Positions 1,344-37,292 of a stretch of DNA of 64,000 bases are shown here, piece after piece. The position numbers and the translations under genes were made by a program. Below the pieces are notes generated by a model that saw only the letters and a list, made by a program, of their open reading frames with translations, made no database searches and had not been told where the DNA came from. This stretch comes from an uncultured Lachnospiraceae bacterium (GTDB lineage: Bacteria > Bacillota > Clostridia > Lachnospirales > Lachnospiraceae): assembly GCA_947172705.1 (NCBI GenBank), contig CAMWCA010000007.1, positions 1 to 64,000 on the forward strand, written 5' to 3'. The first letter of the stretch is position 1, and each line of letters starts with the position of its first letter.

Positions 1344-2660
1344 ATGGATATAAGGTTAAAAAAGGCGGCAGTGGGATTTGTGGGTTTTCTTATCTTTATG
1401 GTAGCATGTACGTTAATTTCCAAAAGCGTATATGCCTACCGCCTGCCCATGGTCAGTACCTGCCAGCCGGAATCCAAATATATAGAACATAAAGTGGAGG
1501 CGGAGGGAATCGTGATCCCGGGAGGGGAAAAGATCGTTACCTATCAGCCGGGGGTCAGGATCGCTTTGATGCTGGTTCACGTAGGCGACCGGGTGGAGGA
1601 AGGAGCAGAACTGTTTCAAATTGATCTGGAGGATTTAAAGGAGATCATGGAGGAAAAGAAAAACGAAATTTCTCAACTTTCCCTCCAGATCAACGCGATT
1701 TTGGAGAATCAGGAGCTTGCCCGGCAGAAAAAGGAGTTGGAGCTTGCACGCGCCCGGGAAGACTACGATATTACGGCAAGGCTTCAGGACACCCAGGTGG
1801 GAAGGGCAATGGAAAGCTATGTCCAGGCGGAAGAGGATCTGGAAGAAGAGGGAGGTCAGGACGCATTGCAGGACGCGCTGCAAAGCGCGGCATACGGGGA
1901 AGCGGATGCCAGGGCGGAACGGGACGAGGCGGTAAAGCAGGCGGAAAGAAAAGTGGAGGATCTTCTTTTGCCGGAGGAAATCTCCGCAGAGCTGGATCGG
2001 CTGAATCTGGAAAAATCCCAGCATTCCGCCAGGCTACAGGAATATCAGAAGATTCTTGAGGAACAGGGGATGGTGACGGCGCCTTTTGGAGGGGTGGTTA
2101 CGGAGATCCTCACAGGAGCAGGGGAGAGGGTTCCGGACACGGCGGTATTGCTCTTATCGGACGATACCCTTCCCTGCCAGCTTAAAGTGCTGCTGGATCA
2201 GGAGCAGAAAAAGTACATTGGTCTGGGGGATCAGGTTTCCATTAAAATGGAAGGAAAAAGCAGGGAACTGGAGAAGGAGATCGCTTACCTTGCAGAGAGC
2301 AGAAGCGTCCCGGAAAAATATGAGGCATTGATTGATCTTCCGGAAAAGACAGGGACGCCGGGGGAGGCGGGAACCATTTCCAAATCCCAGAAGGGTGAAA
2401 AATATAAATTCTGCCTTCCTATGGAAGCAATTCACACAGAGAACGACAGAAGCTATGTGTATGTATTGAAGGAACGGGAAGGAATTCTGGGGGAGGAATA
2501 TTACATAGACGAGATGAATGTAAAGGTGATAGATAAAAACGACCACTGGGCGGCTGTGGAGGAAGGGAGGCTGGAGAAGGAAAGCCGGATCATACTTTCC
2601 TCTACCGGAGAAATGAAAAGAGGGGATACGGTTCGGTGGGAAGGGGAAAATTTATCATAA
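1344..2660 (+). CDS. HlyD/efflux adaptor-like membrane fusion protein
   Basis: N-terminal TM helix, lipoyl-like halves (IVIPGGEKIVTYQPGVRIALMLVHVGDRVEEGAELFQID ... GMVTAPFGGVVTEILTGAGERV) flanking a coiled coil. Confidence 0.75.
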   Translation: MDIRLKKAAVGFVGFLIFMVACTLISKSVYAYRLPMVSTCQPESKYIEHKVEAEGIVIPGGEKIVTYQPGVRIALMLVHVGDRVEEGAELFQIDLEDLKEIMEEKKNEISQLSLQINAILENQELARQKKELELARAREDYDITARLQDTQVGRAMESYVQAEEDLEEEGGQDALQDALQSAAYGEADARAERDEAVKQAERKVEDLLLPEEISAELDRLNLEKSQHSARLQEYQKILEEQGMVTAPFGGVVTEILTGAGERVPDTAVLLLSDDTLPCQLKVLLDQEQKKYIGLGDQVSIKMEGKSRELEKEIAYLAESRSVPEKYEALIDLPEKTGTPGEAGTISKSQKGEKYKFCLPMEAIHTENDRSYVYVLKEREGILGEEYYIDEMNVKVIDKNDHWAAVEEGRLEKESRIILSSTGEMKRGDTVRWEGENLS

Positions 2661-2666
2661 CAGTCC

Positions 2667-2977
2667 AGCCCTGCCGCAAGGAGCAGAAGCCTATCAGCAG
2701 CCTGGCTTTGCACCTGGGGGACATACATCCTTTCCAGACTTGTCTACGAATTGGATTTCACTAACAGAATGCGGGAAAATTTTCAAGCCGGTCGGGTCAG
2801 AGCCAGCGGCATCCGTGCCGCGAGGCTCTTAAAACCGCCGTCCTGGCGGTTTTGCCCTCGTTATAGGAGCATTCTGTAAGTGAAATTGCCAATTCTCCGC
2901 CAAAGCCTGGAAAGGATGTATGTCCCCCAGGTGCAAAGTCAGGCTGCTGATAGGCTTCTGCTCCTTGCGGCAGGGCT
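2667..2977. repeat. Giant hairpin 1: 71-nt arms (2667-2737 / 2907-2977, 70/71 complementary) enclosing structured core 2749-2894
   Basis: Direct reading: left arm agccctgccgcaaggagcagaagcctatcagcagcctggctttgcacctgggggacatacatcctttccag is the reverse complement of the right arm except at one position. Confidence 0.95.
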
Positions 2978-3016
2978 TAACTACAATGGTTTATCTATTT
3001 GAAAAAGCCGAGAACA

Positions 3017-3045
3017 TTGAAAATAGATAATAGATACAGTATAAT
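3017..3045 (+). promoter_or_regulatory. Sigma-A type promoter TTGAAA-N17-TATAAT
   Basis: Near-consensus -35 (3017-3022) and -10 (3040-3045) with 17-bp spacer, just upstream of the ORF at 3093. Confidence 0.7.
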
Positions 3046-3092
3046 ACAAAAGAATAAAGCAATGATAAGATGCTGGCAGGAGGGCTTTCTCT

Positions 3093-3725
3093 GTGCAGGA
3101 GATTTGTAATCTGGTTTTCTTCCGATCTATATTTTTAACTGTTTTATATTCGTTCATCGCCATCACAGTGATAAACTGTCTGTTGGCGGGGCTTTTGCAC
3201 CCCTATTTCGTAAAGGGAGGCTATCCTCCCCGTTTCCTGATCCTGCGTCCCAATCGAATCGACTTTCAGCAGAGCATGGAATGCTCCGCCTATGCCTGCG
3301 CCTTCGTGCTGCGGCATTATGGAAGAGAGGCATCGGGTCAGGCGCTGTACCGGGAAATGCCCTGCAAACGCAGAAATGGAACCGTGTATCCCAAGGGCAT
3401 AAAAAAGCTTTTGACCCGTCAGGGGCTGAATGCCGTGTACTGCACCGGGAATCTGAATGCCTTGAAAAGGGAAATCAGCAGCGGGAACCCGCCTATTGTC
3501 TTTATCCGGACCCGTCCCGGCAAAAACTGGCTGCATTTTGTCCCTGTAGTGGGTTATGACGAAACGCACCTTTTTCTGGCGGACTCTCTGACCGATTTGG
3601 CAAACTGTAGCGAAAATGGCTACAACAGGAAGGTAAGCAACAAGGATTTTTTAAAGCTCTGGAACACCTCCATGCTGAAAATGCCGCTGTACAGGAATAC
3701 CTTTTTTCGGATATCGGAGGTATAG
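3093..3725 (+). CDS. C39-like cysteine peptidase-fold protein with N-terminal membrane segment
   Basis: QQSMECSAYACAFVLRHYG (Cys), NWLHFVPVVGYD (His) and FLADS resemble C39/papain-like family motifs; start codon uncertain. Confidence 0.65.
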   Translation: MQEICNLVFFRSIFLTVLYSFIAITVINCLLAGLLHPYFVKGGYPPRFLILRPNRIDFQQSMECSAYACAFVLRHYGREASGQALYREMPCKRRNGTVYPKGIKKLLTRQGLNAVYCTGNLNALKREISSGNPPIVFIRTRPGKNWLHFVPVVGYDETHLFLADSLTDLANCSENGYNRKVSNKDFLKLWNTSMLKMPLYRNTFFRISEV

Positions 3726-3849
3726 GAAGACATCTGTCTGTCAATGTTTCTTATGGCATTTAAAACGAATGACTGTCAACAGTTGTCTTTTGACCCCAGC
3801 ATCATGATAATAAGCTATATAAATTGCTGTATGATATGAGGTGATTATT

Positions 3850-4188
3850 ATGTGTACGGAAAGTCAGATGAATAATATATTAAAGGAAGTATCCCAATTT
3901 TATCGTTCTGTATATGGAGACAGTATTGTTGCCATTTATTTATATGGTTCGTATGCAAGAGGGGATTATAGCGATGAATCTGATATAGATATTACAGCGA
4001 TTGTCAGAGGAGACAGAGCGGAGTTACAAAAAAAGCTAAAGCAGATATGGGATAAGTCCGCTGATGTAGGATTGAAGAATGATATTATTGTTTCGCCTAC
4101 AGTAATACCGTTTGATGAATATGAAGAATACAAGGAAATACTTCCGTATTATAGAAATATACAGAAAGAGGGTAGAAAAATTGGATAA
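3850..4188 (+). CDS. MNT-type nucleotidyltransferase
   Basis: GSYARGDYSDESDIDI nucleotidyltransferase motif; immediately upstream of a HEPN gene. Confidence 0.88.
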   Translation: MCTESQMNNILKEVSQFYRSVYGDSIVAIYLYGSYARGDYSDESDIDITAIVRGDRAELQKKLKQIWDKSADVGLKNDIIVSPTVIPFDEYEEYKEILPYYRNIQKEGRKIG

Positions 4189-4564
4189 CTTGATGAATTA
4201 CAGGCTTAATAATGCGAAAGAAAAGCTGGAATCAGCTAAGCTTTTGCTTGATGCTGGAAAATACAGGGATTCAATAGGGCGTTCTTATTATGCTATATTT
4301 ACAGCGGTTAGGGCTGTCTTGGCAAATGACCGAATGGATTTTTCGAAACATGCAGGTGTGATTGCTTATTTTCAAAAGGAATATATTAAGACAGGAAAGT
4401 TCGATGTAAAGTATTCGAGGTATTTGCAGACTGCATTTCAAATAAGGAACAGCTGTGATTACGATGACTTTTTTATAGCGTCTAAACAGGATGCAGAGGA
4501 GCAATTTCACAAGGCGGTGGAGTTTTATGATGAAATCTTTGCTTTCCTTTCAAATTCTAAATAA
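4181..4564 (+). CDS. HEPN domain protein (partner of MNT nucleotidyltransferase)
   Basis: AKEKLESAKLLLDAGKYRDSIGRSYYAIFTAVRAVL...; overlaps the MNT gene; TTG (4181) or ATG (4193) start. Confidence 0.85.
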   Translation: MDNLMNYRLNNAKEKLESAKLLLDAGKYRDSIGRSYYAIFTAVRAVLANDRMDFSKHAGVIAYFQKEYIKTGKFDVKYSRYLQTAFQIRNSCDYDDFFIASKQDAEEQFHKAVEFYDEIFAFLSNSK

Positions 4565-4572
4565 ATTACACA

Positions 4573-8048: not shown

Positions 8049-8581
8049 TTTTTGTCCCTTTCTTTCGTTAATTCTTTTTCAAAATTTTCTTCCCATTTTT
8101 CCAGAGTTTCTAAAAGCAGAAATTGTTGTTCCAGTATAGTCCGTCCAAATAATGGAATATCCTTATGCAGGGGCAGCTGTTCCATAATCTGCATTTTGGT
8201 GTTTTGAATGCTGTTTTTAATATTGGCGATACATTCATCTGCAAAGGCTTCGTCAACCAACGCCATATTTACGATCACGGCATTAAAATCTAAAAATACC
8301 CTTGTTTCAGCTACGGAAAACCTGGTCATCAATTCATGAAAAACTTCTTTTCCCTTTGGCGTTATGGTGTACAATGTTTTTTCAGGCATATTGCCATTTC
8401 TGACCGTCTCGCTGACAACATATCCTTTGGCTTCAAATTGAACCACTTTCTTGTAAACGGTAAAAGAACCGATTTTTATCCATCTTGACAGGTTCCGGGC
8501 TTCAATTTGTTTTTGTAGATCATATGCGCTTTTAGGGCTTTGGCATAACGAGCCTAGAAGAATCAGATCAATCGCAGACAT
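8045..8581 (-). CDS. PadR family transcriptional regulator
   Basis: ILLGSLCQSPKSAYDLQKQIEARNLSRWIKIGSFTVYKKVVQFEAKGYV...TITPKGKEVF, winged-helix PadR pattern. Confidence 0.85.
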   Translation of the reverse strand: MSAIDLILLGSLCQSPKSAYDLQKQIEARNLSRWIKIGSFTVYKKVVQFEAKGYVVSETVRNGNMPEKTLYTITPKGKEVFHELMTRFSVAETRVFLDFNAVIVNMALVDEAFADECIANIKNSIQNTKMQIMEQLPLHKDIPLFGRTILEQQFLLLETLEKWEENFEKELTKERDKK

Positions 8582-8599
8582 ATTTTATCATCCTCTCAT

Positions 8600-8635
8600 A
8601 TTACTGTATTATATAATACTGTATTATGCAGTAAT
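8600..8635. promoter_or_regulatory. Palindromic candidate PadR operator
   Basis: attactgtattatataatactgtattatgcagtaat immediately upstream of the padR-like start; nested inverted repeats attactg/cagtaat. Confidence 0.6.
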
Positions 8636-8813
8636 TATGAAATTTGTCAAGTATGAAAATCTGTATTTAATCTGCAAAATTTTGTCTGATAGGGGTACTT
8701 TTTCAAATCAGAATAATTTTGTGGTACAGGTTGTATTTTTTTTGTGTTTAGAATATAATAAAAATGTGATTAAATACACATTAATACTAATAAAAGTGTG
8801 AAAAGAGGCATCT

Positions 8814-21140: not shown

Positions 21141-21240
21141 ATCTTTATAACTAAAGATATGAAATTCCCCCTTAATTTATATTCTTAAATTTTAAAAAGC
21201 TTTCATTACCACTAACATGAGAATATCTGGAAACAGCGAG

Positions 21241-21555
21241 AGTGTGGGCAGGGGATTACAGGGAAGGAGGGAGGAGGGGTGGGCAAAGGGATGGCAAAGG
21301 GCAATGGGGTTCCAGGGCTTTAGCGAGAAATTGGCAATTTCACTTACGGAATGGAGAAATCCCAGGGTGATTCCGCCATGGAGGGTGGAATCAGGAGCCA
21401 CGCGGCACGGATGCCGCCGGCTCCGACCCGTCCAGTTATCGACACCCTTTCCCATTCCGTTAGTGAAATCCAATTTCGAGATCAGCCCTGGAACCCCATT
21501 GCCCTTTGCCACCCCTTTGCCCACCCCTCCTTCCCTGTAATCCCCTGCCCACACT
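21241..21555. repeat. Giant hairpin 2: arms 21241-21319 / 21484-21555 (one mismatch, one 7-nt indel) enclosing core 21329-21475, homologous to hairpin 1 core in inverse orientation
   Basis: agtgtgggcaggggattacagggaagg... vs reverse complement of ...ccttccctgtaatcccctgcccacact; core shares aattggatttcactaac(a/g)gaatg and gcggcatccgtgccgcg with hairpin 1. Confidence 0.95.
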
Positions 21556-21590
21556 CCCACCCCCTCCCAACTAAATTTTCCCCACCCCTC

Positions 21591-37082: not shown

Positions 37083-37292
37083 GCAAAATCCCCGTATCTT
37101 TATGGCGGCTGGAGCCTTCGAAAAGACATTTGTGCGAACGACTTTTGCACCATGGAGATGAGACTCAAAAAACACAGAAGCCAATGCTTCTGTGTTTTTG
37201 TATCAAGAGGCTCATCGGAATGCCCGGTGCAACGGAGCGAGCGCGAATTCTTTTCAAAGGCTCCAGCCGCCATAAAGATATGGGGATTTTGC
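37083..37292. repeat. Giant hairpin 3 between convergent genes: 44-nt arms (37083-37126 / 37249-37292, 42/44) with imperfect nested stem and apical 13-bp hairpin
   Basis: gcaaaatccccgtatctttatggcggctggagccttcgaaaaga vs reverse complement of tcttttcaaaggctccagccgccataaagatatggggattttgc; apical aaaaacacagaag-ccaatg-cttctgtgttttt. Confidence 0.93.

Follow-up and report, generated by a model that had tools for sequence, protein, structure and literature searches.

Background

What is the giant hairpin that separates an HlyD-like gene from a C39-like gene in an uncultured Lachnospiraceae bacterium, and what keeps its two arms so nearly complementary? The hairpin lies in a stretch of 64,000 nt (contig CAMWCA010000007.1), which was analysed as a whole and is called the window below. 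The first-pass annotation of the window had left three candidates for it, namely a structured non-coding RNA, a non-autonomous mobile element and a DNA cruciform. Its core belongs to the motif TwoAYGGAY (Rfam RF01731), and we consider it probable that the hairpin is a copy of a palindromic DNA element that is interspersed in the genome and built around this core, with pairing that would be maintained by template switching during replication. The motif is known; what is new is the view that it forms the centre of a DNA palindrome present in many copies. In the available text of Weinberg et al. (2010; PMC2864571), TwoAYGGAY is a probable RNA and not cis-regulatory. Binding of CsrA has been proposed for it, as a suggestion without a test (PMC4333381, available text), and RF01731 is also named in PMC7682815. 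The available text of the literature searched, which covered few subscription journals and no supplements, was found to mention neither multiple copies nor long arms nor an interpretation of TwoAYGGAY at the DNA level.

Results

Structure of the hairpin

The hairpin fills much of the gap between the end of the HlyD-like ORF at 2660 and the start of the C39-like ORF at 3093, the location given in the first-pass annotation. Its arms (2667-2737 and 2907-2977) pair at 70 of their 71 positions, and the sole mismatch, G2705 opposite T2939, would be a G-U pair in plus-strand RNA and an A-C mispair in minus-strand RNA. The arms are as the annotation describes them, and so are its inner inverted pair and its two small hairpins (please see Table 1 for coordinates, including the longer arms returned by a repeat finder). 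Folding of both strands, which the annotation had recommended, gave minimum free energies of -235.7 kcal/mol (plus, z -20) and -235.8 kcal/mol (minus, z -23), and none of 100 shuffles folded as well. The motif name implies two AYGGAY loops; the window copy has one ACGGAU and one AGGAC loop. Elsewhere in the window, an imperfect AT-rich palindrome (8577-8648; 41 nt arms, 76%) lies between two genes.

Table 1 Palindromic features of the window and their parts
Feature	Position	Strand	Basis or remark
Whole palindromic element (giant hairpin)	2662-2982	- (core orientation)	Inverted repeat of 80 nt, 95%; further copies in the genome
Left arm, copy-specific	2662-2741	.	Repeat finder and arm comparison
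Right arm, copy-specific	2903-2982	.	Repeat finder and arm comparison
Core, TwoAYGGAY (RF01731)	2741-2902	-	74.6 bits, gathering score 43
Inner inverted pair	2749-2772/2869-2894		As described in the first-pass annotation
Core hairpin, ACGGAU loop	2800-2828	-	GGA is plus-strand TCC 2812-2814
Core hairpin, AGGAC loop	2831-2853	-	GGA is plus-strand TCC 2841-2843
Conserved mismatch in otherwise paired stem	2763/2878	-	Minus-strand T.T (plus strand: A2763 opposite A2878)
Second TwoAYGGAY element	21240-21556	+	Core 21320-21484, 80.6 bits
Arms of second TwoAYGGAY element	21240-21271/21525-21556 and 21269-21319/21484-21534		
Second, unrelated hairpin family, similar architecture	37083-37292	+	Arms 37083-37126/37249-37292; no Rfam match

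Copy number and distribution

The genome holds 36 matches to RF01731, all above the cut-off (all 134 candidates were scored). Compared with the window element as a whole, at least five further full-length copies have 88-93% identity and one has 79% (40 of 82 candidates scored), and many fragments are situated at contig ends. Within the genus, 17 of 36 genomes carry the motif, six of them with at least 29 matches (38 candidates scored per genome); across the Lachnospiraceae, it occurs in 45 of 299 sampled genomes, many with several copies (9 candidates scored per genome). No match was found in 24 genomes that represent other families in the order or in 14 control genomes, the plasmid and phage collections gave no match to the window element, and the nearest named records are Lachnospiraceae, judged by record titles. 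The annotation had named two results that would speak against it, a palindrome made by the assembly or a hairpin that is unique and unconserved. The latter is contradicted by this distribution, and the former is unlikely because similar hairpins occur across many independently assembled genomes. In another Lachnospiraceae genome, a truncated TwoAYGGAY core lies right behind an HlyD-like paralogue (L121, 7321-7392).

The window also contains a second giant hairpin, at 37083-37292, whose core differs from TwoAYGGAY and came close to no gathering score in Rfam. It belongs to another interspersed family, in which the core is conserved. The genome has at least 33 blastn matches to this second family (40 of 47 candidates scored), and 19 of 20 fetched places, together with the window copy, have copy-specific arms of 30-80 nt, with 19 G-U and 15 A-C pairs in 20 copies. 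A search of 60 relatives with a core of this family gave matches in 10, every one in the same genus, and mainly in genomes G000 and G034. Since a second family has arms of the same kind, the architecture is not peculiar to TwoAYGGAY.

Evolution of the arms

Nearly every intact TwoAYGGAY copy has inverted arms, which pair within the copy and differ in sequence from copy to copy. The arms of 131 of 154 copies were measured, those with a truncated core or less than 60 nt of flank (23) being left out; the median arm is 82 nt, with 10,106 Watson-Crick cells in all, and the elements are mostly 270-450 nt long, roughly. Arms that seem unique to each copy could have arisen at insertion, as inverted duplications of the target flank, and be perfect through youth. 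Against this, orthologous arms have diverged by up to 30% between two species and are still self-complementary, and the outer arm ends share ancestry within subfamilies. At one orthologous site (G019 C51 23447 and G035 C9 38111), for example, 13 positions separate the two species in the left arm and 12 in the right, with 0 or 1 internal mismatches per copy. Divergence between species with internal pairing kept indicates joint evolution of the arms rather than youth. Fresh duplication is contradicted at 11 orthologous sites and is very unlikely as an account of the family, although single young copies could have arisen in this way.

In order to be counted, a changed base pair had to be Watson-Crick in at least one of the two species, which places two positions mispaired in both outside the count. 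Among the 105 such pairs at the 11 orthologous site pairs, 75 changes are mirrored on both arms and still Watson-Crick, where about 4 would be expected by chance; 38 are of transition type and 37 of transversion type. The other 30 comprise 10 G-U pairs, 9 A-C mispairs and 11 other mismatches. These counts cover 11 of 18 orthologous pairs, the omitted seven having been picked by eye after the arm comparisons had been viewed (in five the arms could not be aligned across species, one had an arm of 10 nt and one was rich in N).

Ratio of G-U to A-C pairs

An RNA helix tolerates G-U pairs and does not tolerate A-C mispairs. Where one arm of a DNA palindrome serves to correct the other, both kinds should occur at about the same frequency, since a single transition turns a Watson-Crick pair into either. 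The arms of the 131 copies contain 175 G-U and 161 A-C pairs. The cores of the two subtypes give 24:39 (66 copies) and 17:32 (60 copies), 5 of the 131 copies being unassigned; their sum of 41:71 leans to A-C and departs from the parity expected of a corrected DNA palindrome, which is a point against that explanation. Copies from 29 other genera gave 28:44, which is the weakest count and possibly part misalignment, since 10% of its cells are other mismatches. The stems of the GGA-loop hairpins contributed 4:4, alongside 2012 Watson-Crick cells.

Riboswitches put through the same pipeline behaved otherwise, with 25:2 for SAM (22 sequences) and 72:6 for TPP (27 sequences, 7 of the 34 listed matches being omitted from the alignment), or 97:8 when pooled. 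TwoAYGGAY differs from these controls with Fisher p values of 9e-19 and 1e-14, and its cores read as RNA of the opposite strand are still unlike them (p 2e-7 and 7e-7), where cells are sequences counted and not independent events. Neither the genus cores (41:71) nor those of other genera (28:44) thus have the wobble-tolerant helices on one strand that the pooled riboswitches have. REP elements of E. coli, taken as a known-DNA control, varied too little to be informative (0 G-T and 1 A-C in 207 cells of 32 REPs; a first search pattern had found 1 site and a second 36, of which these 32 were counted). Joint evolution of the arms is by itself compatible with RNA, because template switching can maintain the stems of real RNAs too (PMC8794818, available text). 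RNA would be disfavoured here solely through the missing wobble bias, which is an indirect test.

This bears on the proposal of PMC4333381, by which TwoAYGGAY would be a genuine small RNA that titrates CsrA with its two GGA-loop hairpins. The core is conserved, 112 of 131 genus copies have both GGA-loop hairpins as a CsrA-titrating RNA would, and CsrA is present in G000 and in 20 of the 22 genus genomes searched (G034 and G035 were outside this search). However, neither strand favours G-U relative to the riboswitches, orientation to genes is random (see below), among the 29 copies of other genera the same simple stem walk recovered both GGA hairpins in just 11, and CsrA occurs also in genomes that have no copies. 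In G004 (86% complete) no CsrA was found, yet this genome has at least 36 RF01731 matches. We regard such an RNA as unlikely.

Conservation of the core

At orthologous sites the median divergence is 0.037 for the core, 0.091 for the arms and 0.094 for the flanks, so that the core evolves more slowly than the arms (p 0.002) and the flanks (p 0.007). A T.T mismatch interrupts the main stem in 122 of 131 genus copies and in 23 of 29 copies from other genera; apart from it, the stem is freely exchanged. Recognition of REP, IS200/IS605 and attC hairpins takes place on single-stranded DNA and relies on conserved unpaired or mismatched bases of their stems (PMC8266576, available text). By analogy, the conserved core with its GGA loops and T.T mismatch suggests a folded single-stranded DNA that is read by a putative protein. 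An RNA-binding protein could also explain the slow core and the GGA loops.

Genomic placement and turnover

Placement was classified from simple ORF calls, made without a gene finder, after 27 of the 131 copies had been left out because they did not have genes on both sides at a distance of up to 500 nt. The remaining 104 copies lie in tandem, divergent and convergent gaps in numbers of 60, 29 and 15, against 62, 28 and 14 for background gaps (p 0.96), and at the tandem sites 26 copies run with the genes and 34 against them. Such placement does not look like that of a leader, a terminator or a gene-linked regulator. A terminator, attenuator or cis-regulatory leader for the adjacent genes could be read from the strong intergenic hairpin and from the family type in Rfam, which is cis-reg; with placement equal to the background, random orientation and the scoring as not cis-regulatory in the available text of PMC2864571, we hold this to be highly improbable. 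A bias towards one replication strand was not found among the copies counted (32:24, p 0.35), and a strand signal in GC skew with 3-kb windows (p 0.006) was lost with 20-kb windows (p 0.31).

Other features recall mobile DNA. The element could be a non-autonomous transposable element of the REP/REPIN or MITE kind, with the arms as its terminal inverted repeats. It has dozens of copies with species-specific amplification, and one site between two relatives is occupied in one and empty in the other. Of 33 pairs of genus copies less than 3 kb apart, 29 have the orientation (-,+) and none has (+,-), and the family-wide survey adds (-,+) for a further 4 of 6 close pairs counted. On the other hand, target-site duplications were not above chance (a direct repeat of at least 4 nt in 7 of 130 copies, 5.0 expected), and an adjacent GTAG tag was not enriched (13 of 130 copies, 9.4 in shuffled sequence). 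A Y1 transposase was rejected as a general partner, none being found in G013 (98% complete, at least 38 RF01731 matches), and none of the 20 Y1 loci contained a TwoAYGGAY copy. A transposon with cargo was rejected as well: the 10 proteins encoded between or beside paired copies are ordinary (they include Nudix, trypsin-like, MatE, rubrerythrin, HEAT and GNAT proteins), as are 56 neighbours in 29 other genera, among the families listed (25 of 82). A transposable element in this sense is a real possibility to which we give slightly less than even weight; it is compatible with, and overlaps, the palindrome maintained by template switching, to which it could supply the spreading step.

Syntenic blocks of G019 and G035 contain several kinds of change at the hairpins. 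One hairpin has mostly been lost between 10-nt direct repeats; one species has a chimeric single hairpin where the other has a pair; one core has been swapped, in opposite orientation, within common outer arms; in one species, the two members of a pair stand 2.4 kb further apart; and one site is occupied in G019 and empty in G035. Homogenisation of arms and inversion of the spacer are known products of template switching (PMC8604942 and PMC8794818, available text).

At the window locus, the annotation had advised comparison of orthologous sites. Neither the hairpin nor the roughly 1.9 kb behind it, as far as the aconitase gene, is present in UBA7093 (L112), the nearest named relative (window 2645-4570). 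Insertion and deletion look alike at this site. The missing stretch includes the C39-like gene and two small ORFs, which we take to resemble a nucleotidyltransferase/HEPN pair.

As a side observation, two genes (MatE and HEAT-like) lie between the members of a hairpin pair of G035 (L201, 8361-10784), where G019 has about 0.1 kb (L200, 8699-8825).

Discussion

Mirrored arms, no preference for G-U and random placement argue that the pairing is kept at the DNA level, most simply by template switching. We are fairly confident of pairing at the DNA level, as far as sequence comparison can tell, and less confident that the working form would be a folded single-stranded DNA, which is argued from analogy. 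When the strands separate, the element would fold back on itself, and replication would jump from one arm to the other as template and transfer mutations across. Such copying would leave the stem perfect and would occasionally flip or replace the core. With less certainty, the GGA loops and the T.T mismatch may be recognised on the folded single strand by a putative protein, as in REP, IS200/IS605 and attC hairpins, and this protein may once have spread the element or may still do so. Hairpin pairs may act as hot spots where genes are gained or lost.

The first-pass interpretation of the hairpin is partly supported. The non-coding RNA is what the databases offer, because the core is catalogued as an RNA motif, whereas the mirrored changes and the wobble test favour pairing at the DNA level. 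The mobile element agrees with an interspersed distribution and a copy number that varies between species, but neither target-site duplications nor a recombinase partner nor a clean insertion event came to light. What the annotation missed is that the hairpin is an interspersed repeat in which each copy has its own inverted arms and G-U is not preferred over A-C.

Quasipalindrome correction is usually reported at single sites. The element shares its two products, arm homogenisation and spacer inversion, both of which were observed here, but the process would act on a whole repeat family. Compared with TwoAYGGAY as catalogued, the core is a member by covariance-model score and has the two GGA-loop hairpins; it differs in being part of a palindrome of about 270-450 nt with copy-specific arms and many repeats, in lacking wobble of the RNA type and in having one AGGAC loop in the window in place of AYGGAY. 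REP and REPIN sequences of TnpAREP (RAYT) are likewise interspersed intergenic palindromes with pairs of fixed orientation and conserved stem mismatches. However, they are 20-40 nt long with an adjacent GTAG/CGTC tag, and the element here is about ten times longer, is not enriched for GTAG and has no consistent Y1 (RAYT) transposase partner. Terminal inverted repeats are common to it and to MITEs, but a target-site duplication is not. With attC and IS200/IS605 hairpins it shares a free stem sequence and conserved unpaired or mismatched bases (class features according to the available text of PMC8266576), and differs from them in that no cassette array or adjacent transposase was seen.

A wider interpretation is possible, though we hold it tentatively and with some doubt. 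TwoAYGGAY and the second family may form a class of strand-specific single-stranded-DNA hairpin elements of gut Lachnospiraceae, spread by a putative protein that reads the loops and the T.T mismatch, with covariation from template switching that has been mistaken for RNA structure.

Conclusions

Covariation of paired bases is the chief evidence for calling a structured RNA. TwoAYGGAY covaries strongly, but its helices do not have the wobble tolerance of RNA, and transversions contribute to the joint changes of its arms. If the explanation by template switching is true, DNA-level events can yield RNA-like covariation across an entire repeat family, the ratio of G-U to A-C mispairs would be a cheap test for other orphan RNA families, and TwoAYGGAY and similar motifs would need to be read anew. 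Dozens of palindromes in a genome, and close relatives for comparison, would make these bacteria a natural system for measuring how palindromes are corrected and lost.
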